From NCBI RefSeq assembly GCF_016653315.1, contig NZ_NHSH01000040.1:97143-161142 (forward strand): a stretch of 64,000 bases of DNA, in the 5' to 3' direction. The position numbers and the translations under genes are program-made. This stretch comes from Halochromatium roseum. Lineage in GTDB: Bacteria; Pseudomonadota; Gammaproteobacteria; Chromatiales; Chromatiaceae. Below are positions 5,681 to 32,334 of the stretch, in pieces. Positions within the stretch are counted from its first letter, which is position 1, and each line of letters opens with the position of its first letter. The notes under the pieces are model-generated. The model searched no databases. It was not told the origin of the DNA and saw only the letters and a list, made by a program, of their open reading frames with translations.

Positions 5681-5764
5681 GGTGGATCAACATGGCGGAC
5701 CAAGAATAGGCAAGTGTTTACCGTCGATTGGTTAGCATAACGGATGCTCGCGCTGGGTTCTGGC

Positions 5765-5943: not shown

Positions 5944-6025
5944 CAGGCTGCGCCAGCGCCTGTTTATACAAAAAAGACTTGGCAGCATTTGCCGCTGTTC
6001 GAGCTGATCAACAGGGTTACGAGCC

Positions 6026-6066: not shown

Positions 6067-6091
6067 GATTCATCCGCCCCGGAGGCGATTA

Positions 6092-6499
6092 GTGGAATAT
6101 CAACATCTTTCGGCCGAAGAGCTGAAAACTCAGATCGAGCAGACCAAACAACGAGAGGCCGAGTTACAGAAGGCACTCAACCAACGCTGGCAGGCCGAAA
6201 AGTCTGAGCTGGCTCAGGAGGTTCGCGACATCATTGAGTCTCGTGGACACGATGTCGAGGAGATTTTCAGCCATCTGATGCCATCTTCGCGACGCCGTCG
6301 CGCTGGCAGCGGAGTCAAGAAGGCGGGTAGCGGAAACTACACGCGCTATGTCGATCCGGAAAACCCGAACAATGTCTACTCCCGTGGTGTGCTACCGCGC
6401 TGGATGAAGGAAAAGATGGCAGCCTTGGGTCTGGATTCAGGTAAAAAAGACGACCGCGAGTCCTTCAAGACCAATCATCTTCAGCCTGTTCAGGATTGA
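6092..6499 (+). CDS. H-NS family nucleoid-associated protein
   Basis: This 135-residue cytoplasmic protein has the two-part plan of H-NS/histone-like proteins: an N-terminal coiled coil (about residues 5-65, LSAEELKTQIEQTKQREAE onward) for oligomerisation and a C-terminal DNA-binding domain containing YVDPENPNNVYSRG and PRWMKEKM, matching the usual YR.P.NP...W.GRG.RP.W pattern. The GTG at 6092 is chosen because a perfect GGAGG lies six bases upstream at 6081-6085; the upstream in-frame ATG at 6035 sits inside the leader hairpin. Such proteins bind AT-rich DNA and silence foreign genes. The hairpin and T-run just upstream suggest control by attenuation. Confidence 0.85.
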   Translation: MEYQHLSAEELKTQIEQTKQREAELQKALNQRWQAEKSELAQEVRDIIESRGHDVEEIFSHLMPSSRRRRAGSGVKKAGSGNYTRYVDPENPNNVYSRGVLPRWMKEKMAALGLDSGKKDDRESFKTNHLQPVQD

Positions 6500-6511
6500 G
6501 TACAGCGTCGC

Positions 6512-7387
6512 TTATGCGGCGGAGTGGGGTAGGGATACCCTGCTGCTTGAGTGCAGCGCCAGCTTGGCACGGTCGTACAAGATGTCGATCAACGCCTCAT
6601 CCTCGCCGACCAATCGGGAAATGCAAATCTCCAGGTTGGGAAATTGCCGCTGAGCCTCCTGACAGATTGAAGCCACATCGCCATGCCTTCCGGCATGGCG
6701 TCCTGGCCCAATGAATTGCATGCCAACCACGACTTGGGCCTCAGGCTCTGAGGCGCCAATCGTGGCCAGTGCCTCCTCGAGCAAGGCGCCGTTGAAGGCG
6801 TATTCAGGCCCAGGACGTCGCTCCATTGCCGCTTCGCCGAGTCGGTAATCCCCATCTGCTAAACCCTGAAGCTCGGCTGTCAGCCAGCGCCGGACCGCGG
6901 TGACCTCTGGAATGGGCGATCCGTGATCGACCACGAGTGCATGGGGTGGTTGCTTGTTCGCAGTTGCCTGGCTCAGCCCGTGGATTGCTGTGCGAATGGC
7001 GCGGTCAAGGATCATCGCGAGCCGCGGTTCGCCGTTTGGCAATGGACAGAGTTCGTCGGCGACTGCGACCTGCACCGGATATCCGGCTGCGCTGACCTGT
7101 GCGGCTGTTTCCGGGATCAGCTTGGTTAAGGCGCGACTCAGTCCAAAGAATAGCGGCACTGCAAGAAAATCTTTGTGGCCCTCAGCGGCCTTGCGCGTAA
7201 GAAAGGTTTCCAAAATATCAGCTGGACGGCCGCCGAGTTGATCTGCTGGCACCTTCGAGGAATGCAACAGTGAGACCGGGTGAACCGGGAATCCGAGCTT
7301 GTGTGCGAGCGCCGCGCTGAGGCGTCGCAGGGCGATTGTCGCCTCGGCGCGGCGGGAGCCGTTATCGACAAGCATGATGGTCGTCAT
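6512..7387 (-). CDS. CbiX/SirB-like sirohydrochlorin chelatase family protein
   Basis: The 291-residue protein resembles class II chelatases that insert cobalt, iron or nickel into tetrapyrroles. Two chelatase half-domains are suggested by MLVDNGSRRAEA near the N-terminus and LVVDHGSPIPEV near residue 155. FLAVPLFFGLSRALT and VVVGMQFIGPGRHAGRHGDV carry further family-like residues, including His. In the first half-domain Asn replaces the His expected in the (V/A)HGS motif, so metal or substrate may differ from SirB/CbiK. The ATG at 7387 has GGAG about ten bases ahead; the longer frame to 7480 lacks homology-like sequence. It ends 12 bases after the H-NS-like stop on the opposite strand. No cobalamin or siroheme genes lie nearby. 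Confidence 0.75.
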   Translation of the reverse strand: MTTIMLVDNGSRRAEATIALRRLSAALAHKLGFPVHPVSLLHSSKVPADQLGGRPADILETFLTRKAAEGHKDFLAVPLFFGLSRALTKLIPETAAQVSAAGYPVQVAVADELCPLPNGEPRLAMILDRAIRTAIHGLSQATANKQPPHALVVDHGSPIPEVTAVRRWLTAELQGLADGDYRLGEAAMERRPGPEYAFNGALLEEALATIGASEPEAQVVVGMQFIGPGRHAGRHGDVASICQEAQRQFPNLEICISRLVGEDEALIDILYDRAKLALHSSSRVSLPHSAA

Positions 7388-7593
7388 TCGGGGGCATTCT
7401 CCTGCGGCAGCGTGGATTCGCGGCAGCAGCGAGAGGCTGCCGCAGGCCAGGAAGGTCGCGGCACTCGGCGCGCTCTTCAATGGTGAGGCTGGAATGGAGG
7501 CGACAGCATCATGGCGCCAGCATGGTGACGCCGGTGCGCAGGCTCGTCTGACAGACTGGTTTGGGCTAATGTTCGAGGACCAACGCCTTGAGG

Positions 7594-7905
7594 CTAGGAC
7601 GCGCGGACGGCGTCGAAGCAGACCACCGGCTCGTCGCCGACGACCTCGGCGGTATGCATCATGTGCTTCGGTATGACGACAACATCACCAGCCTCTAAAA
7701 CGGCCTCTTGGCCTTGCATGGTGATCCGAAAGCATCCGGATAAGATGGCGTCGATCTTGTCATCGGCGTGATCGTGGGCGGGAAAGAACATGCCCGGCGA
7801 GTAGACGTAGCGGCTGACCTTATAGCCGCGCCGCTCGAGCTTATGGCGCAGTGCGAGTTCAGTGAGCGGCCCATCCTGATCAGAGTGCCAATGTTCGATC
7901 TGCAT
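7594..7905 (-). CDS. Small single-domain cupin protein
   Basis: This 103-residue protein is a minimal beta-barrel cupin. Motif 1 is visible as PGMFFPAHDHADDKIDAILSG (positions about 38-58), giving His, His and Asp/Glu candidate metal ligands, and motif 2 as GDVVVIPKHMMHTAEVV near residue 73 with its His ligand. The N-terminal segment (IEHWHSDQDGPLTE.ALR..LE..GY) is of a type common in cupins of Chromatiales and cyanobacteria. The substrate cannot be predicted. It is read leftward between the chelatase gene and the divergent quinone reductase gene. Confidence 0.8.
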   Translation of the reverse strand: MQIEHWHSDQDGPLTELALRHKLERRGYKVSRYVYSPGMFFPAHDHADDKIDAILSGCFRITMQGQEAVLEAGDVVVIPKHMMHTAEVVGDEPVVCFDAVRAS

Positions 7906-8049
7906 GCGATTCTCTCAGTCAGATACCGATGCGGTATCGGCCCAAAGGTTTAAGTGTAGTGTACGCAATAAGGATTGATGAAGGGCTTGATGAAAATCCT
8001 GATGAGGCTCGGTCTGAAATGTCTTTCGACGCAACCTTGAGGAGGTCTG

Positions 8050-12399: not shown

Positions 12400-12592
12400 G
12401 ATGCGCTCTCCCGCGTGCTTCTCTCGTCGCTCGAATTCCGCCATTCTATACGCTTGATGGCGATTGTCTCGGGTCTTCCGTGGTTACTGTGCCCGGCGGC
12501 CACTGACGTCGCTTTCTCGCTCCCGGCAACCGTGATATGGTCGCCGCGTCCTTCAATCCCTAAAGCAACCTAAGATGAGGAGTACCACCACG

Positions 12593-13279
12593 ATGTCTAA
12601 GAAATACTTTTTTCTGTCGGCCGTATCGGCCATGGCGCTGACCCTGAGTCTTGGCAGCGCTGCGCTGGCCCAAGAGGCTGCGGCCCCGGCGGCCCCAGCA
12701 GCGCCTGAGACCGCGCCCAGCGCTGAAACCGCGGCCCCCGAGCAGGCCGCCGCGTCGGAGGCGCCATCTGCCGATGCGATGGAAGCCATGCGTGCCGAGA
12801 TGCAGCAGCGCTACGAAGCGGCGATGGCGGAACGGGCAAAGCGCGTCGAGGAGATGCGTGCTAAGGCCGAGCAGCGTCGTAAAGAGATGCTCGAGCGCTA
12901 TGAGGCCTATCGCGAGACCATTGAGGCCATGAGCGAAGAGCAGAAGGAGGCGATTGCGGCCCTCTTTGGTGGTGCGGCTCAGCAGCCTGAGCGGCCGCCG
13001 ATGCCGCCGATGGGACCTGGCTACGGTCAGCCTCCTCATGGCGGTGGATACGGCTACGGACGCGGCTATCCTGGCCGGGGTTATCCGATGCACCCGCACT
13101 GTGGGGAGATGGGCGCTGACTGCCCGCGCATGCACCGGATGCCGCCGATGATGATGCGCGATATGCCTGAGATGCCGGAGATGCCCGCCATGCCGGACAT
13201 GCCGCCGATGCCAGAGCGTCCGGCCATGCCAGAGATGCCTGCTGCACCGGGCGTTGGTCCAGCAGCTTCGAGCAACTGA
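12593..13279 (+). CDS. Exported Met/Pro-rich protein with coiled-coil and Gly/Tyr segment
   Basis: I cannot name this 228-residue protein. It has a clear Sec signal peptide (KKYFFLSAVSAMALTLSLGS, cleavage near ALAQ-EA), an Ala/Pro linker, a charged helical stretch at about residues 60-120 (MRAEMQQRYEAAMAERAKR) ending in MSEEQKEAIAALFGG, a Gly/Tyr/Pro segment (GYGQPPHGGGYGYGRGYPG), and a tail with His, Cys and about ten MP dipeptides. The helical part with its SEEQ motif recalls Spy/CpxP/ZraP periplasmic metal or envelope-stress chaperones; the Gly/Tyr part recalls sulfur globule proteins of purple sulfur bacteria. Both are hypotheses. GAGGAG ten bases before ATG 12593 supports the start. Confidence 0.75.
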   Translation: MSKKYFFLSAVSAMALTLSLGSAALAQEAAAPAAPAAPETAPSAETAAPEQAAASEAPSADAMEAMRAEMQQRYEAAMAERAKRVEEMRAKAEQRRKEMLERYEAYRETIEAMSEEQKEAIAALFGGAAQQPERPPMPPMGPGYGQPPHGGGYGYGRGYPGRGYPMHPHCGEMGADCPRMHRMPPMMMRDMPEMPEMPAMPDMPPMPERPAMPEMPAAPGVGPAASSN

Positions 13280-18905: not shown

Positions 18906-19658
18906 CTAACTCGGCGGCGGCTGATCATGAGCCCATGGCCGCGGATCATGTGCCATGACCGATGACTGGCGCTGACCGCGACGACCGCGACGGGATTGAG
19001 GAGCCGTTGCGCCTTCGATCAGCGCGCGGGAGACTTCGACCATTGCCTCCTGAGTGCCCGCGAGCTGTAGGTCGGTCCGGTACTTGCCATCGATGATCAG
19101 GGCGGGGACGCCGACGATCTCGAAGCGTTCGGTTAACGCGGCCGCTTGCTGCACCTGATGTTTGACCTCGGGCGAATGGTAGGCCGCTCGAAAGGCGTCG
19201 GCATGGATGCCGATCTCGCGTGCAAAGTTGATTAAGTCGGCTTCGGTCATGATCGGGCGGTGCTCGTCCTGCATGGCCCTGGCGAGGGCCTGATGGAAAG
19301 GCTCCAGGGCTCCAAGTGACTCCGCAGCGTAGTACGCACGGGCATGGGGCTTCCAGCGCGGCGCCACCGCTGGCATGCGGCGGAAGCTCACCTGCCCATG
19401 CGTCTCGTCGATCAAAGGCTTGAGTTGATCCTCGAGCTGACCACAGCTTGGGCAGCCGTACCAGAAGACCTGAATCACCTCGACCGCGTTATCAGCCGCG
19501 TTATCAGCGCCCGTCGTCTGTGGGTCGCTCAGGGTCGCGTAACGCTGGCGTTGATCTTCGGAAGACGCAGCTGAGGCGGCAGTTAGGGTGAAGAACAGGG
19601 TGAAGAACGGGCCCAGGAACAGGGCCAGCACACGAAAGGCAGGAGGCGAGCGACGCAT
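18906..19658 (-). CDS. dsbA: Thiol:disulfide interchange protein DsbA-like
   Basis: A 250-residue periplasmic oxidoreductase: signal peptide (FRVLALFLGPFFTLFFTLT), then a thioredoxin fold with the active-site motif VFWYGCPSCGQLE (Cys69-Pro-Ser-Cys72) and the cis-Pro loop VGVPALIIDGKYR near residue 195. The helical insertion typical of DsbA lies between them. The dipeptide between the cysteines is PS rather than the PH of Escherichia coli DsbA, which is expected to make it a weaker oxidant. A basic, Gln/Arg-rich tail (SRRGRRGQRQSS) extends the C-terminus. I prefer the ATG at 19658 over a GTG two codons upstream. No dsbB is adjacent. Confidence 0.88.
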   Translation of the reverse strand: MRRSPPAFRVLALFLGPFFTLFFTLTAASAASSEDQRQRYATLSDPQTTGADNAADNAVEVIQVFWYGCPSCGQLEDQLKPLIDETHGQVSFRRMPAVAPRWKPHARAYYAAESLGALEPFHQALARAMQDEHRPIMTEADLINFAREIGIHADAFRAAYHSPEVKHQVQQAAALTERFEIVGVPALIIDGKYRTDLQLAGTQEAMVEVSRALIEGATAPQSRRGRRGQRQSSVMAHDPRPWAHDQPPPS

Positions 19659-19811
19659 GGGCACGAACCGTCTGTTTCGGGGAGCATCGCGCGAGTCTAA
19701 CGCGGTATCCTGACCCGCTGTTAGACCGATTCTCCCGTCCGTGCCGGTGCGCTCGTCTCCTGTTGAGTCGTCGAGAGTCCGGGATTCCTGCCGCAGAGGC
19801 CCTCCGTTCAG

Positions 19812-22169
19812 ATGTCTTACTGTGCGCCATCGATGCGAATCAATCGCATCCGACCCTACTGGCTGATGCCCGTCTCACTGTTGCTGCTGTGGGCGCTGCC
19901 AGGACTAGCAGGTCAAGCGTTGATGCTTGCGAAGGAGGCCGAGGTCATGCAGGCAGAGGCAGCCAGTCCTGAAAAGCACCGAATCCTAGTGCTAAATTCC
20001 TATAATCTAGGCTATTCCTGGACCGATAATGAGGTTGCGGCGATTCAGGACTTCTTTGCTGATGATCCTAGCATCATCTTGCAGATAGAATTCATGGATA
20101 CGAAAATGACCAATTCGCCTGAGCATTTTTCCAACCTGCTCACACTCTACCAGCACAAGTATCGTGATTCTACCTTCGACGTCATTATCGTGACTGACGA
20201 TGACGCCCTCGATTTTGTCCGCGATTATGGCGCGAGCTTATTTCCTGATGTGCCTGTTGTCTTTGCCGGCATCAATAATTTTGGGAGCGGCCAGATTGCC
20301 GGTATGCATGCGGTGACGGGCGTCAACGAGGAGGCGGACTTTATCGCTAATCTAGAGCTCATTACAAGGCTGCAACCGGATGTGGAAGACATCTATGTCA
20401 TTACTGATGAACTGACGGCAGGGCTGATGATTCGGCGAGAGTTCGAGGCCGCGGCTGCTGAATTTAAAGATCGTCTGCGGTTCCATTTCTTGAATGATTT
20501 AACCCTCGATGAAGTGCTTGCCAAGGTCGCGACCTTGGAGCCAACCGCGGCCGTGTTCTACCTCACCTTCTTCCAAGATGCGACTGGCAAGAGTTTTACC
20601 CCATGGGAGGTGCTGCCGCGGATCTCAAGCAGTTCAGCCGTGCCATTGTATGGTCAGGTCGACTATATGTTGGGTAAGGGGGTGCTTGGCGGCAAGGTCA
20701 AGACGTCCTATTACCAAGGCCAGGCTGCTGCGGCATTGGCGGCTCGGATCATCGCAGGGGAGCTTGCCGAATGCATCCCAATTGTGATGGAAAGTCCGAA
20801 CATGTATATGTTCGATTACGAGCAGATGCAGCGGTTCGGTATCCCAAAGCGGGCGCTGCCGAAAGAGCGCATTATCATCAACGAGCCGGAGACCTTTCTT
20901 TACCGATATCAAGGTCTTATCGCGATCGTTTCGCTGGTCTTTGTTGTGCTGTTAGGGTTTATCTTTATTCTGCTATTCAATATCCGTAGGCGCAAGCGCG
21001 CCCAAAAAGGCTTGCAGGATATCCTGGTCGCGATGTCGTCGGTGCTCGAGTTGGACTCGGCAGCAGAGATCAAAGAAGAACTCATCGAGATCATCAATCG
21101 CATCATCTTCCTGGATCACGCGGTCGATCAGGTGCGGATCTGCAACTACCATGGCAACCTGCGTGAGTATGACGCGAGTGCGTTACTCCCAGTTGGTGCC
21201 GAGGCGGCCCCGAGCATGTCCCAGCCCGGTGATGACCTGATTCGCACGGCGATTGAACAGGGCAGCAGTATCGTGCGCGGTCGTGAATGCGTGGCCCTGT
21301 TCAAAACACAAGGCCTCATGGGCAATGTCGTCTACCTCAAAGGCGACCGGTGCTTTGAGGATATCGATCAGGATCTGCTCGAGATCCTGACCAGCAACGT
21401 GTCAATGGCGATTGAAACGTTGGAGAAGAGCAAGATGCAGGAGGCGCTTGAGACCGCGCGCAAGATCCAGCTCAGCATGTTGCCGCATGCCTTCGAATCC
21501 GTCGCGGAGCCGTTTGGAGTGGATGTCCATGCGATGTTGCTGGCAGCCAAGGAGGTCGGCGGCGATCTCTACGATGTCTTCGCGATCGATGATGATCATC
21601 TGTGTATCGCCGTCGGCGATGTCGCCGATAAGGGTGTGCCAGCGGCCCTGTTCATGGCTGTAGCAAAGACCTTGATTCGCGCCAAGGCGGAACCTGGGTC
21701 AATGCCCGAGACCATCCTCGGCAAGGTTAACGCCGAGCTGCTGCGCGACAATGACCAGTGTCTGTTCGTGACCTTGTTCCTGGGGATCTACCAGCGCAGC
21801 ACGCGAACGCTGAATTACGCCAACGGCGGCCACAATCCGCCATACTTGATCGCCGCCGATGGCACGCCAAGCGAGCTGCCGCTGTTGCCCGGGGTCGCGC
21901 TTGGGGTCGTCGAGGGCGTGGTCTATCGGTCCCAGCAGCATCAGTTTGCGCCAGGCGAGGCACTGTTTGCGTACACGGATGGGGTGACAGAGGCGGTGAA
22001 TACGACCGGTGCCATGTATGGAGAGGAGCGTCTGAAGCATGTGCTCGCTGGTCTCGGTACGGCGGTTGCGACAACCATCGATAGCCGTGTGGTCGATGAC
22101 GTCGAGCGCTTCTCGCGGGGCGCCGGCCAGGCCGACGACATGACCGTGATGACCCTACGCGTGCAGTAG
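19812..22169 (+). CDS. Transmembrane sensor: periplasmic binding domain fused to SpoIIE-type PP2C phosphatase
   Basis: This 785-residue protein has an N-terminal signal/anchor, a periplasmic ABC substrate-binding-like domain at about 55-355 (ILVLNSYNLGYSWTDNEV, PVVFAGINNFGSG), one transmembrane helix near 375-395 (IAIVSLVFVVLLGFIFILLF), a cytoplasmic linker with GAF-like character, and a C-terminal PPM phosphatase at about 545-785. The phosphatase has AAKEVGGDLYDVF, AVGDVADKGVPAALFMA, NGGHNPPY, YTDGVTEAV and QADDMTVM, so all the usual metal-binding Asp residues appear intact. It should dephosphorylate a STAS protein upon ligand sensing; RsbW-like and STAS genes lie 3.5-4 kb downstream. An SLC13-like carrier gene follows eight bases later. 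Confidence 0.88.
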   Translation: MSYCAPSMRINRIRPYWLMPVSLLLLWALPGLAGQALMLAKEAEVMQAEAASPEKHRILVLNSYNLGYSWTDNEVAAIQDFFADDPSIILQIEFMDTKMTNSPEHFSNLLTLYQHKYRDSTFDVIIVTDDDALDFVRDYGASLFPDVPVVFAGINNFGSGQIAGMHAVTGVNEEADFIANLELITRLQPDVEDIYVITDELTAGLMIRREFEAAAAEFKDRLRFHFLNDLTLDEVLAKVATLEPTAAVFYLTFFQDATGKSFTPWEVLPRISSSSAVPLYGQVDYMLGKGVLGGKVKTSYYQGQAAAALAARIIAGELAECIPIVMESPNMYMFDYEQMQRFGIPKRALPKERIIINEPETFLYRYQGLIAIVSLVFVVLLGFIFILLFNIRRRKRAQKGLQDILVAMSSVLELDSAAEIKEELIEIINRIIFLDHAVDQVRICNYHGNLREYDASALLPVGAEAAPSMSQPGDDLIRTAIEQGSSIVRGRECVALFKTQGLMGNVVYLKGDRCFEDIDQDLLEILTSNVSMAIETLEKSKMQEALETARKIQLSMLPHAFESVAEPFGVDVHAMLLAAKEVGGDLYDVFAIDDDHLCIAVGDVADKGVPAALFMAVAKTLIRAKAEPGSMPETILGKVNAELLRDNDQCLFVTLFLGIYQRSTRTLNYANGGHNPPYLIAADGTPSELPLLPGVALGVVEGVVYRSQQHQFAPGEALFAYTDGVTEAVNTTGAMYGEERLKHVLAGLGTAVATTIDSRVVDDVERFSRGAGQADDMTVMTLRVQ

Positions 22170-22177
22170 GGACGGGC

Positions 22178-23575
22178 ATGAGATCACGCTGGGACTGGAT
22201 TCCGTGGCTGCTGGTGATCTTGATCCCAATCGCGACCTTTTTCCTGATGCAGGCGCAGGGCGTTGGTTGGCGGATCACGATGTTCACGGCGATTGTGCTC
22301 ACGGCGCTGCTGATGTGGTTTCTGTCCCTGCTGCCGGATTTCGTGCCGGCGCTGATCGCGATGTTGTCGTTCCTGATCTTCGGCTTGGCGCCGGAGTCGG
22401 TGGTGCTTTCAGGCTTCTCGTCAAACGCCTTCATGCTGACCCTGAGCATCCTCGGGCTGGGCGTGGTGGTGGTGGAGTCGGGCCTGACGCGGCGCTATAC
22501 GCTGATGCTGCTGCACCACCTGCCGGCGAATACCTTTGCCCACCAGCTGATGGTGTTCTCGACCGGACTCCTGTTCACGCCAACCGTGCCGACCATCGTC
22601 GGTCGGGCGGCGATCGTTGGGCCGGTGGTTGAGCATATCGCCCATGGCTGGGATGCGCGGGCACGGCGTCACTCCTCGACCATGCTGTATACAACGGGGC
22701 TGGATTCGATCCACTTCTTGGCGCCCTTGTTCCTGACCGCGGCACCAGGGAATCTGATGGTGTTCGCACTGTTGCCACCGCAGGATCAGCAAGCCTTCGA
22801 CTTCCTGTTTTGGTTTTTCGCGGCCTCGTTGACGGGCATCGTGCTGCTCTGGTCGTATCTGTTCTGCAGCGCGCTGTTCTTCCGCAGCGCCTATCGGCAT
22901 GTCGATATCTGCAAGGCCGAGATCGCCCAGGCGCTGGGAGACCTCGGGCCCATGCGAGCGACTGAATGGTGGGCGCTGATCGGTGTCATTCTGCTCGGTT
23001 TAGGCATCGCGACCATCAGTTGGCACCACATTGAGGTGCACCTGCTGGCACTGACGGTGCTCTGTTTGATGTTGTTCCTTGGCATGCTCTCGCGCAATGA
23101 TTTTATTGCCAGGATCGACTGGGCATTCTTATTCTTGCTTGGGAGTATGATCGGCATCGTCGCGACGATGAATCATCTGGGGATCGATCGCTTCATCATG
23201 GGCGAGCTGTCCTGGCTGGGTGAGTACATGCGCCAGGACTTTGGCTTATTCGTCTTGGCACTATCGACGGTGTTCCTGCTCGCGCGTCTGTTCATTCCAT
23301 TGAATCAGGCTATTATCGTCTTTGCCGCGGCGCTGATCCCGATTGCCAGCAATGCGGGCATCTCGCCCTGGGTAGTTGGCTTCGTGCTCCTGATCCTGGC
23401 GGAGACGGCGTTCTTTCCGCATCAGTCGCCCTATATCTTCCTTTTCGATCGGCTCACCAGCGAGGTTGATCGCGATATTCGACGGGTACAGTTGTTCCAT
23501 CTGCTGCTGATCCCCTTCAAGATTACTGCGATCCTGATCGCGATCCCGTTCTGGCACCGCATTGGTGTGTTATGA
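22178..23575 (+). CDS. SLC13/DASS-like anion transporter
   Basis: A 465-residue polytopic membrane protein with about eleven to twelve hydrophobic segments, including WLLVILIPIATFFLMQ at the start and a repeat organisation of the ion transporter (ArsB/NhaD, DASS) superfamily. TPTVPTIVGRAAIVGPVVEH near 130 and FIPLNQAIIVFAAALIPIAS near 375 occupy the places of the two substrate-binding loops (SNT-like motifs), though the Ser-Asn-Thr signature itself is not exact. Substrates of the superfamily include dicarboxylates and sulfate; none can be assigned. The last codon overlaps the next ATG (ATGA at 23572), implying coupled translation with a binding protein. Confidence 0.8.
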   Translation: MRSRWDWIPWLLVILIPIATFFLMQAQGVGWRITMFTAIVLTALLMWFLSLLPDFVPALIAMLSFLIFGLAPESVVLSGFSSNAFMLTLSILGLGVVVVESGLTRRYTLMLLHHLPANTFAHQLMVFSTGLLFTPTVPTIVGRAAIVGPVVEHIAHGWDARARRHSSTMLYTTGLDSIHFLAPLFLTAAPGNLMVFALLPPQDQQAFDFLFWFFAASLTGIVLLWSYLFCSALFFRSAYRHVDICKAEIAQALGDLGPMRATEWWALIGVILLGLGIATISWHHIEVHLLALTVLCLMLFLGMLSRNDFIARIDWAFLFLLGSMIGIVATMNHLGIDRFIMGELSWLGEYMRQDFGLFVLALSTVFLLARLFIPLNQAIIVFAAALIPIASNAGISPWVVGFVLLILAETAFFPHQSPYIFLFDRLTSEVDRDIRRVQLFHLLLIPFKITAILIAIPFWHRIGVL

Positions 23576-24639
23576 AGCAGAGTCCCGCAGCGTTGATCCT
23601 GAGTCTATTGTTCTTTGTGGGTGTTGCCGCCTTTGCGGTGGTCTTCAATGTGACCAAGCCGCGGGTGATGATCTTACAAAGTTACGACCCGGAATATGCC
23701 TGGACACGTGATATCAATGCCGGTATCCGCCGTGTCTCGGACAGCTGGACCAATTACAGTGTCAACTGGCACTACATGAATACCAAACGCTTTTCCGATC
23801 CTGACTCGCTGCGCTACGCGGGAATCGTCGCGCGCCGTGCGATCGAGCGTTTCAACCCCAATGTCCTGATTGCTGTCGATGATCTCGCGCAAGGGCTTGC
23901 GGCCAGTTTCTTTGTCGATCATCCGCGTATGGAGATCGTATTCACTGGCGTCAACGACACAGTCGAGCCCTATGGCTACGTCGGCGCTGAGAATGTGACC
24001 GGTGTTTTCGAACGTAAGCCGCTGCAAGCGGTCAAGGACTTGGTGCTGACCCTTGAGCAAGAGACTGAGCAGGAGGCTGGCGATGCGGCTGCGCCAGCAC
24101 CTGGAATTCATTATCTCATGGACCCCTCGGAATCGATGGCGCGGGATCGCGATCGGGTCGAGGCCTTTGATTGGTCGCCAGTCCGTTTCGAGGGGACCTT
24201 TGTCGCTGAGGATTATCCCTCTTGGCAAGCCTATGTGCGTGCACTGCCCAGTACCGATGGCGAGTATCTGTTGGTCGCCAATTACCGACAGCTGCAGCGC
24301 AGCGAGACCACGCCTGAGCCTGTGCCGCCCGATGAGGTGATGCGTTGGACAGAAGCCAACTCGCCCATTCCGATCATTGGGGTCAACGTCTTCAATGTCG
24401 AGGATGGGGCCGCCCTGGCGGTGGGTGCCTCGCCGTTCGAGCAAGGTGAGGTTGCGGCCCGATTAGCTGATCAGCTGCTTCGGCAGGATGTGCGAGGAGG
24501 TCAGGTTCCCATCGAGACTCCAGCGTACTACGTCGTCGCCATCAATGAGGCCGCCTTGGCGAAGCGTAACCTTGATCTGCCGCAGATCTATGAGGCCTTT
24601 GCGCGGACCACCTTTACCTACATCGATGCGGGGCAGTAA
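23572..24639 (+). CDS. Membrane-anchored periplasmic binding protein (ABC substrate-binding-like)
   Basis: This 355-residue protein has an N-terminal hydrophobic anchor (LILSLLFFVGVAAFAVVFNV) and a type I periplasmic-binding fold similar to that in the upstream sensor: VMILQSYDPEYAWTRDINAG matches ILVLNSYNLGYSWTDNEV, and MEIVFTGVNDTVEPYGYV matches PVVFAGINN. It has no ABC ATPase or permease partner here; instead it is translationally coupled to an SLC13-like carrier. A role in delivering ligand to the carrier or to the sensor is an inference. No lipobox is present. Confidence 0.75.
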   Translation: MKQSPAALILSLLFFVGVAAFAVVFNVTKPRVMILQSYDPEYAWTRDINAGIRRVSDSWTNYSVNWHYMNTKRFSDPDSLRYAGIVARRAIERFNPNVLIAVDDLAQGLAASFFVDHPRMEIVFTGVNDTVEPYGYVGAENVTGVFERKPLQAVKDLVLTLEQETEQEAGDAAAPAPGIHYLMDPSESMARDRDRVEAFDWSPVRFEGTFVAEDYPSWQAYVRALPSTDGEYLLVANYRQLQRSETTPEPVPPDEVMRWTEANSPIPIIGVNVFNVEDGAALAVGASPFEQGEVAARLADQLLRQDVRGGQVPIETPAYYVVAINEAALAKRNLDLPQIYEAFARTTFTYIDAGQ

Positions 24640-24653
24640 GGGGTTAAGAGGTC

Positions 24654-25523
24654 ATGGGGGTGCTCGCACTGAGACGTCGATCCATGGACAGCAGCAACGC
24701 GCTCACCAGTGCCAACATTCGATTCCATCTGTTCCGCACGCTGGTGCTGCCGATGTTGCCGGACGAGCCGGCTCAACAGGTTCGGCCGCCGGTGGTGATT
24801 GGCGCCCATGGCGGCTCGGGGACCCGCGTGCTGCCACCGGCGTTGCGGCTGGCGGGGTTCTGGATGGGTTCTTGGGTCAATCCCAGAACGGAAGATGCGA
24901 TGTCGACCCGCTTCTTCCTGCAGCGCTATTTTGAACCGGCGATGATCGATGAGCCGACTCAGCGCGTTGAGCTCGAGCGCCTGTTTCGTGCCCTGATCCG
25001 AGGCCACCGTGTCCGCATGCCCGACCCATCTTCGGCCTGGGGCTGGAAAAACCCGCGTTCCATGTGGGTGATTCCGTTCCTGGCTCGCCTCTATCCTGGG
25101 ATGCGATTCATCCACCTGGTGCGCGATGGTCGTGACGTTGCCCTCAGCAAGAATCTGAACTTGCTTCACAAACATGGGGCTTGGCTGCTGGGTGAGCAGA
25201 GCCCAGAGGCTGACCCCGTCAGGGCCCAGCTTCGGCTCTGGGCGCTCGGAAACGCGATCGCTGCCCGCGACGGCAAGCGGTTGCTTGGGGACAATTATCT
25301 GCATCTCTCCTATGAGGAGCTGTGCCGGGCGCCGCGCGAGACATTGGCGCGAATGTATGACCATGTCGGCCAGTCGGTGTCGTGCCGCATCCTCGACCGC
25401 GCTCAGCAGCTCGTGGTGCCACCGAGCAGCATCAACGCCTGGCGCCACAGCGAGCACGAGTGCCTGCACCGGCCGAACCGCGAGATCACTGATGTCCTGC
25501 ATCGGTTCGGCTACAGCAGCTAA
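24654..25523 (+). CDS. Sulfotransferase family protein
   Basis: A 289-residue protein with the two PAPS-binding signatures of the sulfotransferase superfamily: the 5'-phosphosulfate loop VVIGAHGGSGTRVLPPAL near residue 47 and the 3'-phosphate-binding segment FIHLVRDGRDVALSKN near 157. It would transfer sulfate from PAPS to a hydroxyl or amine of an unknown acceptor in the cytoplasm. The WGWKNPRSMWVIPFLARL stretch near 128 is typical of this bacterial branch. It begins 15 bases after the binding-protein gene and probably ends the operon. Its presence in a signalling/transport cluster is unusual. Confidence 0.82.
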   Translation: MGVLALRRRSMDSSNALTSANIRFHLFRTLVLPMLPDEPAQQVRPPVVIGAHGGSGTRVLPPALRLAGFWMGSWVNPRTEDAMSTRFFLQRYFEPAMIDEPTQRVELERLFRALIRGHRVRMPDPSSAWGWKNPRSMWVIPFLARLYPGMRFIHLVRDGRDVALSKNLNLLHKHGAWLLGEQSPEADPVRAQLRLWALGNAIAARDGKRLLGDNYLHLSYEELCRAPRETLARMYDHVGQSVSCRILDRAQQLVVPPSSINAWRHSEHECLHRPNREITDVLHRFGYSS

Positions 25524-25665
25524 TGCCCATGGCGCCGTGCGACCCCAGCAGATGAAGCGTGCGAGATGCACATGAAGCCGACGAGCTGGGCGAGCCATTG
25601 CCATGTGACCAAGATCAGGCGGTTGGTCAGCCAGCCGTTTCGCTCGGTAAACCGGAGGGATGCCC

Positions 25666-26094
25666 ATGAAGTTCAGACTCGATGATCAGGCCGACGCGGT
25701 CACACGGCTGGTGGAGCAGATAGAGATGGCGCTGATGGCAGAGGGCGTGCCGATGAAGATCATCTATGCGGTCAACCTGTGCGTCGAGGAGTTGGTGCTC
25801 AATAGTGTCAACCATGGCTATGGTGGGGCGGCCGCGGCCGATGTCGAGGTCGATATCGAGCGACAGGAGCAGCGCTTGATCATCGACATCAGCGATGGCG
25901 CCGCGGCCTTCGATCCGACGACCGAGGCTGCTGAGCCCGATACCGACGCCGAGATCGACGACCGCCCGATTGGCGGCTTGGGTATCCATCTCGTTAAGCG
26001 GCTAACCGACGAGATGAGCTATCGCCGGCTCGATGGACGCAATTACGTCCGCTTGGTCAAGGGGTTCGAGCCAGATGCCGAGGCCGCGGAGTAA
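25666..26094 (+). CDS. RsbW/SpoIIAB-like serine kinase (HATPase anti-sigma or anti-effector factor)
   Basis: The 142-residue protein has a GHKL ATPase fold: N-box CVEELVLNSVNHGYGG at about 39-54 (Glu and Asn ligands), G1 box IIDISDGAAAFDP near 78, and G2-like IGGLGIHLVKRLTDEMSY near 108. Such kinases phosphorylate a STAS antagonist and sequester a sigma factor or other target. ATG 25666 is preferred over 25660 because GGAGGG (25654-25659) abuts the upstream ATG but is correctly spaced from the second. Together with the upstream phosphatase and the facing STAS gene it completes a partner-switching set. No sigma factor is encoded nearby. Confidence 0.88.
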   Translation: MKFRLDDQADAVTRLVEQIEMALMAEGVPMKIIYAVNLCVEELVLNSVNHGYGGAAAADVEVDIERQEQRLIIDISDGAAAFDPTTEAAEPDTDAEIDDRPIGGLGIHLVKRLTDEMSYRRLDGRNYVRLVKGFEPDAEAAE

Positions 26095-26171
26095 TTGCCA
26101 TTTGCGCGACGATTGCGGCAAGTCGTTTGGCGTTATGCGGCTTGTGACCGGAGCTGTTTGCGGTGAGCGGG

Positions 26172-26504
26172 CTAGAGCATTTGGATGGTCTTACTGATCG
26201 TCTTGCCAGCCTTGAACAGGGATAAGAAACCGCACAGATCCAAGACCTCTCGCACATGGGCATTGGCGTGGCAGAGGCCAACACCGCCACCGAGCTTGGC
26301 GGTTGCCTTGACCGCCTTCATCATCACCCGTAAGCCCGCGCTCGAGACATAATCGGTGTCGTCGAAGTCGAAGACGATTTTCGATTCGCCGGTTTCGATG
26401 CGAGTCGTGAGCTCGCGATCGATCTCTGGCGAGGTCGTGGTGTCGAGTCGCTTGCCGGGCTTGACCACGAGGGCGTCGCCTTGTTTGTAGAATTCTGCGG
26501 CCAC
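26172..26504 (-). CDS. STAS-domain anti-sigma factor antagonist
   Basis: A 110-residue single STAS domain of the SpoIIAA/RsbV type. The segment KIVFDFDDTDYVSSAGLRVM contains the expected phosphorylatable serine (Ser55, in SSAGL), and the N-terminal strand GDALVVKPGKRLDT followed by SPEIDREL fits the fold. When dephosphorylated by a PP2C phosphatase it would bind the HATPase kinase and release that kinase's target. It is encoded on the opposite strand, convergent with the kinase gene (77 bases apart) and divergent from the Met-rich protein genes. Confidence 0.9.
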   Translation of the reverse strand: MAAEFYKQGDALVVKPGKRLDTTTSPEIDRELTTRIETGESKIVFDFDDTDYVSSAGLRVMMKAVKATAKLGGGVGLCHANAHVREVLDLCGFLSLFKAGKTISKTIQML

Positions 26505-26677
26505 GCTGGACTCCTCTGGTCGACTGGGTCATGCGCATGAGAGCGCATTGGAGTGACCGGCGAGCGGTCGCTGTGTGCGGTGGGCGTTCCCCCGCGGCTC
26601 GCGCGGATTCTGCGCTCCATTTTGAGCTATTCTTGCTCTGCTGCTCATCCATCAAGTCCACCGAGGGCCATCGTCTA

Positions 26678-27277
26678 GTGACCGACCAAACGACCACCGT
26701 GGCCCTCAAAGGCTCTCCGCAGCTTGAGGTGTTCCGAATCATCGACGAGCGGTTGCAGGATGCGGTTCGGCGTGAAGAAGACACCGATTATCGCAGTGCC
26801 AAGGCAAACCGTCGCACTCAGACCATCGGTCGCATCTCGGTCGTCACTGTGCTCTTACTCACCCCGCCGGTGTTCTACCTGATCTGGACCCTTGTTGGGG
26901 CCATGGGTGTGATCACCGATCGGATGGGCTCGATGCATGAACAAGTCGATCTGATGGAACAAGACTTTGATCAAGTGGCGGCTCGGATGTCCCGCATCAA
27001 CAGCGCGGTTGGCAACATGAGCAACAACATCGCGGTGATCGAGCCGATGGAGCAGAGGCTGCTCCGCATGCGCGACGATGTCGACCTGATCTCGACATCG
27101 ATGGGTGGAATTGCCCCGAACGTCCATTCGATTGACCAGGTCCTTGGGGGCATGGAGCAAAATCTCCTGCAGATGAATCACGTGTTTGGCTTTCTGAATC
27201 GCGATGTCTTCAGGATGCGCCAAAACGTGAATCAGATGAGCAGCCCGATGCGCATGGTCCCTTTCTTCGGCCAATAG
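26678..27277 (+). CDS. Met-rich single-span coiled-coil protein, first of a pair
   Basis: Not a family I recognise. From the GTG at 26678 (GAGGG ten bases upstream) it has 199 residues: a charged cytoplasmic N-terminus (IIDERLQDAVRREEDTDYRS), one transmembrane helix near 55-78 (ISVVTVLLLTPPVFYLIWTL), and a long helical domain with Met recurring at about seven-residue spacing. By my count 16 residues are Met. The C-terminus SSPMRMVPF resembles SRPMSILP at the end of the next protein, so they are likely paralogues. An upstream open frame to 26531 is rich in Arg and Cys and probably not translated. Diverges from the STAS gene. Confidence 0.75.
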   Translation: MTDQTTTVALKGSPQLEVFRIIDERLQDAVRREEDTDYRSAKANRRTQTIGRISVVTVLLLTPPVFYLIWTLVGAMGVITDRMGSMHEQVDLMEQDFDQVAARMSRINSAVGNMSNNIAVIEPMEQRLLRMRDDVDLISTSMGGIAPNVHSIDQVLGGMEQNLLQMNHVFGFLNRDVFRMRQNVNQMSSPMRMVPFFGQ

Positions 27278-27339
27278 TGCCGCAGTAAGAGCCGGAGTCG
27301 AAACCGGCTTCCCGAATCTTGACCAGAGTGGCCGTAGCG

Positions 27340-27906
27340 ATGACCCCAGAAGAACGTGACGAGGCGCAACAGGTTGCCAACCGCTTCATGGACCTGCATG
27401 AAGACTTGATGTTCATCTTCAAGCACAACATGGTCCGCAGTACCTCGCGCATCAACAGCATTATTCGCTACGCGATGGTCGGAATGGTGGTGATGATGCT
27501 GGCCATGCTGGCGTTGGTCGCGACCTTCACAACGCGCATGGATAGCATCACGAGTTATATGGTCGAGATGGCTGACGACATGCAGAGGATGCGCGATGAT
27601 TTTGACACCGTGAATGCCATCATGCGCTCCATGGAGCAGTCGGTAGTGGCCATGGATGGTTATGTCGCGCCGATGCCGTCGATCTTTTCGTCGGTCGATG
27701 CGATGTCGGTGAATATGTCCCGCATGCGCGAGTATCTCGGCAGCGTCGAAGGCGATATGGACCGCATCCAGGTCCGCATGGTCTCACTCGGCGGCGCGCT
27801 ACAGGCCATGGATCAAAAGATGATTGATATGAGTGGAGCGATCGGCGGCATTGGCCGTGACGTCAACATCATGTCGCGGCCAATGTCCATCCTGCCGAAT
27901 AACTGA
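27340..27906 (+). CDS. Met-rich single-span coiled-coil protein, second of a pair
   Basis: This 188-residue protein has the same plan as the previous one: soluble helical N-terminus (ERDEAQQVANRFMDLHEDLM), transmembrane helix near 47-68 (AMVGMVVMMLAMLALVATFT) and a helical domain ending SRPMSILPNN. Met is extraordinarily frequent, about 28 of 188 residues, occupying presumed core positions of a coiled coil. I chose the ATG at 27340; a TTG at 27319 and a GTG at 27328 are also in frame, and no strong Shine-Dalgarno sequence decides. The two proteins probably form a hetero-oligomer in the membrane; function unknown. Confidence 0.75.
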   Translation: MTPEERDEAQQVANRFMDLHEDLMFIFKHNMVRSTSRINSIIRYAMVGMVVMMLAMLALVATFTTRMDSITSYMVEMADDMQRMRDDFDTVNAIMRSMEQSVVAMDGYVAPMPSIFSSVDAMSVNMSRMREYLGSVEGDMDRIQVRMVSLGGALQAMDQKMIDMSGAIGGIGRDVNIMSRPMSILPNN

Positions 27907-27915
27907 TTCGGGTTG

Positions 27916-29427
27916 TTAGCCTTGGCCGCCGCTTGACGCTGCACCATCGGCGGAACGGATCTCTGGTGCCTTCGGCGCCACCCTGGCCGGCGGTGCTGAC
28001 TCCAGGGGTTGTGACGCTGGGCGGGGGATGGTCGCTTGCGGCGTTGCCACTGGTTGTTGGTTAACCGCTGGCGCGGACTCTTCAGCTACCGATGTCTGGC
28101 CTTGCACCTGGTCTGCTGGCGCTGCTGCCGGCTCCGGATCGGTGACCTGTCTAGGCGCAGACGCTGGCACTGATGCTGACGCCGGTGCTTGCTCTGGCTC
28201 TGACGTCGTTGACTGAGAGCTTTCCTGCACAGTGGTCTGGAGCGACTCTGAACCTGTTGCTTCGTTGCTGGTGCTTGCCGAGCTGGCCTGACTGGGTTGG
28301 GCCGGAGCCCTCGTTTGAGGGGCATTGGCCATCTCTGCAGCCGTGTCTTCGGTGCCGGCCTCGGTCCCGCTGGCCCCGGCTAGCGTGCTGCCACCCATGC
28401 TGCTGCTACCATTAACATTACCGGTAACATCAGCGGTAACCTCACCGGGGTTGCTGCCACCTTGACCAGAGCCTGTCGGTTCATTGCTTCCGGCTGATGT
28501 CACAGCCGCGTCAGCGTTTGCAGTCTTGGAGCCGGAGCTAGCGTTGGTCGCGGTTCGAGTCGGAGACCGTTCGCTCGCGGTTGAGGCGCGCTTGGATGCG
28601 CTTGACGCGCTTGTGGTGGACGCCGAACGGGTCCGAGTCGAGGAGCTGCGAGGTTCAGAACTGGCGGTGGCGATGCGGTTCTGCCTTTCTTGTTCGCGCT
28701 GACGGCGGATGCGTTCGGCATAGTTACCATAATCCGGTCCGCTCCCGATCACGGTAACCCGCGTGCCAATGTCAGTATGCGCAAACAGGCTCGATGCGAC
28801 CTCATCCGGAAGGCGGATGCAGCCATGCGAGGCGGGTTGGCCGGGCCTAGGGATGGCGCCTGCGTGCATGCCGATACCGTCATAGGTCATGCGCATGAAG
28901 TGGGGCATGCGGGCGCCGACGAACTTGCCCCCGGCAGGTATCGGGTCGCTCGAATGGGCGTTGCGCTTGTGTAAGCCACCGTTGGCGTTGTAGATACGGC
29001 CGTAGAGGTTGGAACGCTTCTTCGCCACCTTCTCCATCACCTGGAACTCACCGCTCGGGGTTGGATGCGATGAGACGCCTGATGCGATGGTCGTCCAGCC
29101 CACCTGTTCTTTGCCGTCGTAGAAGCGCGCGCGTTGCTCGTTGGTGTCGATCACCACATGCGAAATCTTGCGTCCAGTGCCGTTCCATTCGAAGAGTTGA
29201 TCCGGCTCTGGGTCTTCCTGCGGCTCGGGGATGGCCTGCGCCGATGCCTCTGCGGTCTCCGTCTCTGGCTCGGACTCGACGTTGACCTCCGCTGGAAGCT
29301 GGTCGCTGGAGGGCGTTGAGACGGGGATCTGGGCGCAGCCGCCGAGCAGCATGACGGCGCTGATGATCTGCAGCCAGATCGAGCCTATGGGGTGAATGTT
29401 GTTGTGTAGCTTATTCAGGATGCGCAT
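27916..29427 (-). CDS. Lipoprotein L,D-transpeptidase (YkuD) with long low-complexity tail
   Basis: A 503-residue protein with a lipoprotein signal (AVMLLGGC, lipidation at Cys31), a Glu/Pro-rich linker, a YkuD catalytic domain at about 85-225, and a 270-residue Ser/Thr/Ala/Gln/Pro-rich C-terminus. Active-site residues are intact: GIGMHAGAIP with His and SHGCIRLPDEV with the nucleophilic Cys. Such enzymes make 3-3 peptidoglycan cross-links or attach lipoproteins. The tail is probably disordered and may span or bind the cell wall. An RRQREQERQNR helix links the domain to the tail. It is read leftward and converges on the Met-rich pair. Confidence 0.87.
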   Translation of the reverse strand: MRILNKLHNNIHPIGSIWLQIISAVMLLGGCAQIPVSTPSSDQLPAEVNVESEPETETAEASAQAIPEPQEDPEPDQLFEWNGTGRKISHVVIDTNEQRARFYDGKEQVGWTTIASGVSSHPTPSGEFQVMEKVAKKRSNLYGRIYNANGGLHKRNAHSSDPIPAGGKFVGARMPHFMRMTYDGIGMHAGAIPRPGQPASHGCIRLPDEVASSLFAHTDIGTRVTVIGSGPDYGNYAERIRRQREQERQNRIATASSEPRSSSTRTRSASTTSASSASKRASTASERSPTRTATNASSGSKTANADAAVTSAGSNEPTGSGQGGSNPGEVTADVTGNVNGSSSMGGSTLAGASGTEAGTEDTAAEMANAPQTRAPAQPSQASSASTSNEATGSESLQTTVQESSQSTTSEPEQAPASASVPASAPRQVTDPEPAAAPADQVQGQTSVAEESAPAVNQQPVATPQATIPRPASQPLESAPPARVAPKAPEIRSADGAASSGGQG

Positions 29428-30519: not shown

Positions 30520-32334
30520 TCAGCGCCAGCTTGGTACCGCTTGCGGCGGTACACCTTGCGGTGGCCAGGCCTGTCCACTGGGTGGCGCATAGCGCTGATA
30601 GGGCCACTGAGGCGGTGCGCTGCGAGCGGGAACCGGACGTTGCTGCGGGCGGAAGTCGGGCTCTGGCTGTTCTGCGGGGTTGGCCTCAGCGGCTGATGAA
30701 TCACCGGCATCACCGGCCGCGCTCGTGTGTTCCTTTGCGCTTTCGGTGCCTAAGTCTAGGTCCGCTGACGGTGCGAGCGACGCAGAGATCGCCGCGCCAC
30801 CAAGTGCGTCAGTCTGGCGCTCGTCTGTTGGATCGATGTCGCCGTCGGATTCTATGCCTTCGATCGAATCCGTCTCATCGGTTGGATCTTTCTCAACGCC
30901 TGCCGCTGATCCGTTGTCCGCGTGCGACCGAATTTTGCCTGCGCTGTCCACTGGATTCAGTTGAGCGTCAGGCTCCAGTTGGTCGCCTGAAACGAGTTCG
31001 TCGCTTGGCGTCATCTCGTGGCTGGCTTCGTCTTGGCTCGACGCAGTCGCCTGTTTGGCGAGGAGCTGCTGTGGATCGAACCCGAGCAGCCCATCCAGAT
31101 CGTACTCTGATAGCTCATAGAGCCAGGGGTCTGTGCCGGTTTGGAGCAGATAGCTACCGTTGCCATCGGCGAATACCGTCCGACTGCGACGGCTGCCGTC
31201 ATCCAGCGTGATGTCGAGCCGAAGCATGGGCTCGGACGTCAATGCTGCAGCGGTTGCCGGCATCCGAACATCCTCATAGCTGAGGTTGGCGATGCGGCTC
31301 AACAGCGCCGCAACCTGAGATGGGTCCAGGTCAGATCGAGCCAGCTCGGGCGCGTTTGGCTTAGTTTGATCCAGACCCGTCGGTTCCAGCCCAGCGCCTT
31401 CCAGCGTCTTGTCTTCCCGCCCAGCGTCTTCACGTTCAGCGCCTTCTCGCACGGTGCCTTCTCGCACGGTGCCTTCTCGCACGATGCCTTCTCGCACGAT
31501 GCCTTCTCGCACGGTGCCTTCTCGCACGGTGCCTTCTTGCTCACGATGGTCCAGTTCCATGCGCTCTAGCTCGGGTGCTGGGGCAGAGGTCGGCGTGCCG
31601 GCCGTTTGGTCTGCCAATGCGGCCGTGAGCCGCCAGCTGCCATCCATGCGACTGAGCGTCCAGTTATCGCTGTGAACGCGCTCGATCGCCTCGGCGTCGA
31701 GGCGGAGCTGGTCGCGACGCAGCCAGTCGCGACGATCACTGGTCATCAGAACGTTGGCCAGCGGCAGGTCGTAGACCGTCTCTTCGTCGGCCAGACGCGC
31801 ATAGAGGCGGCGAAAGCCTGGGGAGTCGCCAGTCAAGAGCTGCGTTAGCTCGCCGACATCGCCGACATCGCCAGTATTTCCGGGTTTGCCGTACAGCGTG
31901 ATACGACACTCGGCGTTGTCGTCGGCGACCTTGAGTCGGTGTTGTGTCTCAGCGCTGGCGCCGACCGGCAACGGCCGCTGCAGGGCTGTCAGCGTGTTCA
32001 AGAGCCGATCAACCTTGTCCGCGTCGGCAGGGAAGTCGGCGAGCGCGGGCAGGACCCAGCCCTCGGCAGCGCGCGCGAGCACGACCTCCTCGTCGGCGCT
32101 ATCGATCTCGATGCGCCTGACCTGATCGCTCGAAAGATCGAGCAAGGGGGCATCGGTGGTGATGCTCGTTTGGATTGCGTTGCCGGCCAGGACCAGCGCC
32201 GCGACAAGCTGCGCCACCAGCAGCGCGATCAGGGCGCTGACGGCGGGCGTCTGCAGCGCGCGCCGCCAGCTCGGCTCAAGCCCGCTGAGTGGGTGACGGA
32301 AGTGCTGTGCCAGCCCATTCGATCGATCGCTCAT
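30520..32334 (-). CDS. DUF4340 protein of a Gld-type ABC operon, with pentapeptide repeats
   Basis: The 604-residue protein has one N-terminal transmembrane helix (VSALIALLVAQLVAALVLAG) and a periplasmic DUF4340 region in two parts: VRRIEIDSADEEVVLARAAEGWVLPAL near 60 and RRDQLRLDAEAIERVHSDNWTLSR near 205. Between them and the rest lies a tandem pentapeptide stretch (EGTVR, EGIVR units) around 265-310, encoded by 15-base repeats, and the C-terminal 180 residues are acidic then Pro/Gln-rich. DUF4340 proteins accompany GldG-type auxiliary transporter genes. The ATG overlaps the stop of the fused permease gene (ATGA). Confidence 0.78.
   Translation of the reverse strand: MSDRSNGLAQHFRHPLSGLEPSWRRALQTPAVSALIALLVAQLVAALVLAGNAIQTSITTDAPLLDLSSDQVRRIEIDSADEEVVLARAAEGWVLPALADFPADADKVDRLLNTLTALQRPLPVGASAETQHRLKVADDNAECRITLYGKPGNTGDVGDVGELTQLLTGDSPGFRRLYARLADEETVYDLPLANVLMTSDRRDWLRRDQLRLDAEAIERVHSDNWTLSRMDGSWRLTAALADQTAGTPTSAPAPELERMELDHREQEGTVREGTVREGIVREGIVREGTVREGTVREGAEREDAGREDKTLEGAGLEPTGLDQTKPNAPELARSDLDPSQVAALLSRIANLSYEDVRMPATAAALTSEPMLRLDITLDDGSRRSRTVFADGNGSYLLQTGTDPWLYELSEYDLDGLLGFDPQQLLAKQATASSQDEASHEMTPSDELVSGDQLEPDAQLNPVDSAGKIRSHADNGSAAGVEKDPTDETDSIEGIESDGDIDPTDERQTDALGGAAISASLAPSADLDLGTESAKEHTSAAGDAGDSSAAEANPAEQPEPDFRPQQRPVPARSAPPQWPYQRYAPPSGQAWPPQGVPPQAVPSWR
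31441..31530 (-). repeat. Six 15-base tandem repeats within the DUF4340 gene
   Basis: On the plus strand the unit GCCTTCTCGCACGGT (two copies with GAT in place of GGT) repeats six times without interruption, followed by a degenerate seventh copy to 31545. On the coding strand it gives the pentapeptide V/I-R-E-G-T. Length changes in multiples of 15 would leave the frame intact. Confidence 0.95.

Follow-up and report, generated by a model that had tools for sequence, protein, structure and literature searches.

A 64,000-nucleotide stretch of the genome of Halochromatium roseum (hereafter the window; NCBI RefSeq assembly GCF_016653315.1, contig NZ_NHSH01000040.1, positions 97,143 to 161,142) carries eight genes, which we call A to H (positions 19812-27906), that make up a conserved modular system with parts of known kinds; as the original prediction had supposed, the composition is unusual, and no described match to the combination was found in the open PubMed Central (PMC) literature among the matches listed. 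We consider it almost certain that the eight genes form a functional unit. Its parts and their motifs, their conserved linkage, a two-way pairing of the carrier gene B with the binding-protein gene C, and an exchange of input genes over a constant E-F-G-H set can be read from the sequence itself; the pairing and the exchange are our strongest results, and the ligand and the target of the switch are our weakest points. The eight genes are:

19812..22169, + strand: A, sensor phosphatase (N-terminal segment, periplasmic-type binding domain, transmembrane segment, DUF3369 region, SpoIIE-type PP2C domain)
22178..23575, + strand: B, SLC13/DASS-type carrier (PF00939 Na_sulph_symp, 91.8 bits, cut-off 27)
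23572..24639, + strand: C, membrane-anchored binding protein, its start overlapping the stop of B
24654..25523, + strand: D, sulfotransferase (Sulfotransfer_3, 67.6 bits, cut-off 27)
25660..26094, + strand: E, RsbW-like kinase (HATPase_c_2, 88.4 bits, cut-off 27.4)
26172..26504, - strand: F, single-domain STAS protein with Ser54-Ser55 (STAS, 61.5 bits, cut-off 22.6)
26678..27277, + strand: G, membrane protein with a predicted single pass and an extended helical C-terminus, its gene divergent from that of F
27319..27906, + strand: H, Met-rich paralogue of G (by tblastn, alignment and Met content)

Our Pfam scan covered ten proteins of the region 18906-29427. The families are those originally assigned from the sequence (for A to F, a sensor fusing a periplasmic binding domain to a SpoIIE-type PP2C phosphatase, an SLC13-like carrier, a second anchored binding protein translationally coupled to it, a sulfotransferase, an RsbW-like kinase and a STAS protein with an intact Ser), and the catalytic motifs are intact.

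The order and orientation of A to H are identical in four genomes: that of the window, Lamprobacter modestohalophilus, a Halochromatium metagenome-assembled genome (MAG) and Rhabdochromatium marinum. The proteins of the window and of R. marinum are 49-70% identical, and in R. marinum a FadL-type porin gene is inserted between F and G. Full-length A occurs in eight of 146 genomes of the family, these eight being the matches followed out of many partial ones. In genome G018 the genes are split between two contig ends, one carrying A-B-C-D and the other G/H, F and the final portion of an E; G133 has A-B at the end of a first contig, then the end of B, C, a histidine phosphatase gene, D, an acetolactate-decarboxylase-type gene, an E-like gene (41%), a xanthine/uracil-type permease gene and a STAS stretch (37%) on a second, and a G/H pair (42/47%) on a third; in G056, A adjoins H and G, with B-F unmatched in the stretch examined; and in G100 the stretch ends inside B. 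A scan of named genomes (17 loci) added Desulfobacter, Desulfobacula and Candidatus Thiodiazotropha to the organisms with A-B-C; in a gammaproteobacterial symbiont (L051) and in Candidatus Magnetominusculus it showed B-C close to a sensor of altered build, which has a binding domain without a known output domain in the former and a histidine-kinase output in the latter. The loci with A-B-C or B-C span Pseudomonadota, Thermodesulfobacteriota and Nitrospirota. In five more loci (L053-L057) the binding domain of A is all that is shared, and the stretch examined shows no B. Accidental adjacency, which the original prediction had named as a ground for its own refutation, was rejected on the synteny in four genomes and the two-way B-C pairing; since relatives keep the unit and one swaps sensor and carrier, the grouping is probably functional rather than an accident.

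The B-C pairing holds from either side. A profile of B finds eight loci in seven of 369 gammaproteobacterial genomes (E 1e-60), with C adjoining B in all eight, the window included; a profile of C finds seven loci in six of 338 genomes (E 1e-40), with B adjoining C in every one. What had been seen as a carrier and a second binding protein within the cluster is thereby sharpened to a pair of its own. Across three phyla, C follows B in 17 of the 18 loci with a visible downstream side (the 17 being the window, L034-L037, L138, L047-L049, L052 and L103-L109, where L103 is the symbiont locus L051; L038 and L040 end inside B and so fall outside the count). In the window the gap between A and B is 8 bases, and the start of C overlaps the stop of B as ATGA. 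The AlphaFold model of C (mean predicted local distance difference test score, pLDDT, 85) has a helix at residues 5-28 and a binding-protein fold, with 3lkv, 6hni and 3lft as best PDB matches in Foldseek; against PF04392, C scores 22.9 bits, just under the cut-off of 25.9, and cross-matches indicate that C and the binding domain of A are related domains. Reading the ligand of C off its fold was given up: none follows from the closest solved structures, of which 3lft has L-Trp according to its title. No ABC permease or ATPase gene was found beside the PF04392-type C among the ten proteins scanned. From this linkage, we consider it likely that B and C form a binding-protein-coupled carrier.

Several observations weigh against this reading or against a tie of the pair to A: a relative of B in G353 (E 6e-68; the most distant B, 25% identical to that of the window) has no C in the 11 kilobases (kb) examined; 24 distant relatives of C, in the phylum of Desulfobacter, have no B in the 2.7-4 kb examined; and six of the seven B-profile loci other than the window have no A in the 10-20 kb examined. 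Because several of the distant, B-less relatives of C adjoin sensor-like genes, C could instead be a co-sensor that hands ligand to A or titrates it, with B transporting alone, and the relatedness of the domains of A and C would fit such a role. We regard this as unlikely: B and C adjoin in those six loci despite the missing A, in several with overlap or near-overlap of stop and start, and close relatives of C were found only beside B (seven of seven).

A carrier of the SLC13 type with a binding protein of its own was not found in the open PMC literature among the matches listed, nor was a partner switch linked to one. Closest among published proposals to a coupled B-C pair appears to be TAXI-GltS of Bordetella pertussis, for which excerpts of the report (PMC12344293) describe a membrane-tethered binding protein and, encoded by an overlapping gene, an elevator-type secondary carrier that is not of the TRAP kind, the coupling being argued from gene linkage and models and not yet from transport; our proposal rests on the same sort of linkage and overlap. 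Translational coupling of binding-protein gene to secondary carrier gene is common to both, here through the ATGA overlap, whereas the partners differ (as far as these excerpts go, a lipid-anchored TAXI protein and GltS of the ESS family there, a PF04392-type protein with an N-terminal helix and an SLC13-type carrier here), and here a sensor phosphatase adjoins. TRAP and TTT systems likewise join a binding protein to a secondary carrier (PMC5812351, in excerpt), and three of nine B-family proteins scanned pass the Pfam DctM cut-off (L052, L106 and L107; L105 falls just short); however, neither a DctP/TctC-type protein nor a small Q/B subunit was found in the cluster, and B and C of the window have no Pfam match to DctP, DctQ or DctM. 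In L051/L103, L052, L105-L109 and L149 (L104 was not in the scan) a cyclic-nucleotide-monophosphate-binding (cNMP-binding) domain is fused to B, and a B-type carrier at L108:8506-11040 bears, besides its cNMP-binding domain, a fused four-helix-bundle sensory module (27.8 bits, cut-off 27).

A, E and F bring together a PP2C phosphatase, a HATPase kinase and a STAS protein with catalytic and acceptor residues intact. A matches ABC_sub_bind PF04392 (29.4 bits, cut-off 25.9), DUF3369 (43.7, cut-off 27.2) and SpoIIE PF07228 (161.8, cut-off 25), and its PP2C acidic residues are invariant in an alignment of eight orthologues; Glu43/Glu44/Asn48 and Gly105/106/108 of E are invariant in six aligned rows, as is Ser54-Ser55-Ala-Gly of F in seven. 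It is very likely, judging from these residues, that A, E and F form a partner switch. The window genome has three SpoIIE phosphatases, 12 STAS matches and 18 HATPase_c_2 matches (many of these in long frames). At C72 lies an RsbR-type set with its own STAS, kinase and SpoIIE phosphatase genes, and at C66 a STAS gene, a kinase gene, an NMT1-type binding-protein gene and a PP2C sensor gene lie side by side; this C66 set resembles our cluster in its adjoining STAS, kinase, binding-protein and phosphatase genes and differs in sequence (its STAS protein is 29% identical to F and its PP2C domain 43% to A), and no relatives of B, C, D, G or H were found in the 19.5 kb examined there. In the partner switch of Chlamydia, according to excerpts of PMC11619594, the sensor PP2C RsbU is reported to sense alpha-ketoglutarate and acts with an RsbW kinase and a STAS substrate on sigma66; a metabolite-sensing PP2C, kinase and STAS substrate would be shared with the present switch, which differs in its PF04392 sensor domain and in the linked carrier, sulfotransferase and G/H pair.

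In genome G076, where no full-length A was found, E-F-G-H is retained but stands beside other inputs. Its neighbors there are a PP2C sensor whose dCache-like region scores below cut-off, a protein in which SBP_bac_3 occurs twice, an SLC1-type (SDF) carrier and an Asp/Glu racemase. Its E, F, G and H are 46, 60, 57 and 66% identical to those of the window and 67, 78, 67 and 74% to those of Rhabdochromatium; its PP2C domain, at 36% identity, is further from A than the C66 paralogue of the window genome is (43%), and its carrier, binding protein and enzyme belong to families other than those of the window. The output set of G076 looks orthologous and the input set does not. Close G/H pairs (E 1e-30) were found in nine of 210 genomes of the order; at seven of these nine loci F is no more than one gene away from G, and at six E is as well (in G018, only the end of E at the contig edge), and G049 has F-G-H beside an sCache chemoreceptor gene without E. 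From this conserved linkage, E, F and G/H form an output module.

The separate occurrence of the two halves (A-B-C without D-H outside Chromatiaceae, in the stretches examined at L047-L049; E-F-G-H without A-D in G076) would also fit two independent cassettes, A-B-C-D and E-F-G-H, that chance placed next to each other in this lineage, A then having no action on F. We consider this very unlikely: in G076, too, the output set has a PP2C sensor, a binding protein and a secondary carrier as neighbors; phosphatase, kinase and STAS genes are the neighbors expected of one another; and of only three SpoIIE phosphatases in the window genome, those at C66 and C72 each have STAS and kinase genes of their own. 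As a separate observation, the PP2C sensor, double SBP_bac_3 and SDF carrier genes of G076 overlap or abut (L130:6992-15533), which makes this set, after B-C, the second candidate for coupling between a binding protein and a secondary carrier outside the TRAP family.

The exchange also bears on the target of the switch, for which the original prediction had offered the carrier, the sulfotransferase or the G/H pair. Because G076 swaps the input over a constant E-F-G-H, with a carrier and an enzyme of other families beside it, we think the first two unlikely as direct targets, and G/H or an unlinked protein likelier. G and H are distant paralogues (26-27% identity in tblastn, E down to 2e-10), each with a likely topology, as predicted, of a short N-terminal part, one transmembrane stretch and a long helical C-terminal part. 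The start of G was moved from ATG 26531 to GTG 26678, where its relatives begin; with 15 Met among 198 residues G is only half as Met-rich as H (28 of 195; 2.2% over 46 picked open reading frames of the window), so that the description of two Met-rich membrane proteins stands for H and in part for G. The AlphaFold model of G is helical throughout and poor (pLDDT 66.7, predicted template-modelling score 0.23), and a fold search with it was dropped on that account. An unrelated Met-rich (11.5%) and Pro-rich protein with a signal-like start is encoded at 12575-13279 (+); it was not a relative of G/H in the search of the family genomes.

Is G/H then the direct target? Matches resembling G/H occur in 75 of the 146 family genomes (E 1e-10), and 19 distant loci inspected comprise 18 tandem pairs and one single match; a Cache-domain gene adjoins the G/H-like genes in L134, L135 and L158, and the other neighbors, as far as scanned, vary. 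By this distribution the G/H family is older and wider than the switch. Moreover, G/H occur without F in G056, in G133 and, as distant pairs, widely; G/H therefore do not need F, which counts against a dedicated output. An ordinary partner switch with an unlinked output (a sigma factor, an anti-sigma factor or a second-messenger enzyme), in which carrier, binding protein, sulfotransferase and G/H are a regulon or client operon kept near for co-expression only, is accordingly a real contender, if not one we would put at even chances. Known Gram-negative switches act on such targets, for example sigma66 in Chlamydia (PMC11619594, in excerpt) and sigmaS in Shewanella (by a title in the reference list of PMC8256260); where inspected, the G/H-like pairs mostly lie outside such a cluster; and E-F-G-H is not one operon, F being on the other strand. 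On the other side, the closeness of F to G in seven of nine loci persists across replaced inputs, the E-less G049 included, and neither a sigma nor an anti-sigma gene was seen among the cluster proteins scanned. That G/H is the direct target of the switch is, on this linkage, a tentative proposal and somewhat doubtful.

Evidence on the ligand comes from the carrier and from its neighbors. Among solved chains, chloroplast dicarboxylate transporters 2.1 and 1 come nearest to the B profile (E 7e-18 and 2e-16), followed by SLC13A1 (1e-5) and VcINDY (above 1); against NCBIfam TIGR00785 'dass', B scores 90.6, below the cut-off of 198.6. According to excerpts of PMC7553777, sodium cotransporters of the DASS/SLC13 family carry two Ser-Asn-Thr motifs, and in DASS exchangers an Arg and a His are reported to replace the two sodium ions. 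In B, Arg143 of the first hairpin, in the place of sodium 1, is invariant in 11 of 11 rows and aligned with the Arg of the chloroplast transporters (LaINDY itself is outside the alignment, and its Arg159 was placed by spacing). B thus shares with LaINDY, DiT1 and DiT2 the PF00939 fold family and, as in DiT, the first-hairpin Arg; it differs from the family as excerpted in PMC7553777 in its attached binding protein and in having neither the Ser-Asn-Thr motif nor, unlike the exchangers, the second-hairpin His in the hairpin stretches of the 11 rows, and we count these two absences against the overall explanation given below. Our best guess from these residues is that B is an exchanger-like carrier of two-charged acids.

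Next to B-C, L105, L106 and L107 have genes for both fumarase parts, a malate/lactate dehydrogenase and an acetyl-CoA-synthetase-type enzyme (the Pfam result for a gene that we had read as phosphoenolpyruvate carboxykinase, a reading now dropped), and L047, L048 and L049 have a histidine phosphatase and a ComA-family protein with A-B-C, the latter of the phosphosulfolactate synthase family (200-217 bits, equivalog cut-off 280). Sulfolactate is the sulfonate analogue of malate. Because of these two contexts and the nearness to chloroplast dicarboxylate transporters, the ligand may be a malate-like dianion, a suggestion that we hold as evenly balanced, and it is perhaps sulfonated or sulfated. 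It is somewhat more likely than not that the related domains of A and C bind one ligand or two similar ones. No ComA match was found in the window genome, which counts against the overall explanation, and ComA as a general part was rejected, being matched in five of 146 family genomes, four above cut-off. In G018, a Chromatiaceae MAG, ComA lies on another contig than A-D, with a 2-phosphosulfolactate phosphatase, Ldh_2 and two thiamine-pyrophosphate-enzyme halves (L069:419-4431), presumably a route of coenzyme M synthesis. At L066:6066-8323 a ComA-family gene adjoins that of a Lyase_1 protein, and the same holds by position and sequence reading in L067 and L068 of the same genus.

In D, the GGSGTR and RDGRD stretches are invariant in six aligned orthologues. 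Its substrate could not be taken from structures, as the nearest chains (tyrosine sulfotransferases and the sulfotransferase domain of a polyketide synthase; E about 1e-6 to 1e-5) fix none. In the Chromatiaceae loci, D occupies the place that ComA has elsewhere, and in G133 it occurs together with the histidine phosphatase; these positions suggest that a sulfated member of the same ligand class is produced or consumed by D.

Our best explanation of the whole is a modular transport-and-signalling cassette, which we offer tentatively and at somewhat less than even confidence; what we infer in it is the class of ligand, the mode of exchange, the direction in which transport runs, the phosphorylation and the target. 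Anchored C would serve B, probably an exchanger, which would carry a small dianionic malate-like acid, in this lineage possibly a sulfated or sulfonated analogue that D may make or use. The binding domain of A, related to C, would read the same or a related ligand outside and set the cytoplasmic PP2C domain, which would dephosphorylate F, with the kinase E rephosphorylating it; a membrane output would then receive the state of E and F, the likeliest candidate for it being the helical pair G/H, the genes of which are divergent from F. Taken jointly, it is rather unlikely, though worth stating, that B-C represents a further class of binding-protein-dependent secondary transporters (an anchored PF04392-type protein with an SLC13-type exchanger) for malate-like dianions, sulfonated and sulfated ones included, and that E-F-G-H is a portable membrane-output partner switch placed on differing binding-protein/secondary-carrier operons (SLC13 here, SLC1 in G076), signalling outside nutrients through STAS phosphorylation to a helical pair and not to a sigma factor.

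Of the surroundings, a DsbA-type thioredoxin gene at 18906-19664 (-) is divergent from A; it has a relative in the same place in Lamprobacter (87%) and Rhabdochromatium (38%) and may belong to the neighborhood. G+C is 0.55-0.58 in most of the cluster (20001-24000 and 26001-28000) versus about 0.60-0.67 in most of the window, which would fit lateral gain; positions 4001-8000 are likewise low. A tandem repeat (unit 15 bases, 6.5 copies) lies at 31441-31537 within the minus-strand frame 30520-32334.

Few kinds of secondary carrier depend on a binding protein: TRAP, TTT and, as a recent addition, TAXI-GltS. If B-C is indeed an SLC13-type carrier served by an anchored binding protein, the family that includes the human citrate and sulfate carriers would join them. 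Inputs that change around an unchanging E-F-G-H amount to a natural experiment on the targets of Gram-negative STAS switches, and it makes the uncharacterised G/H pair directly testable.

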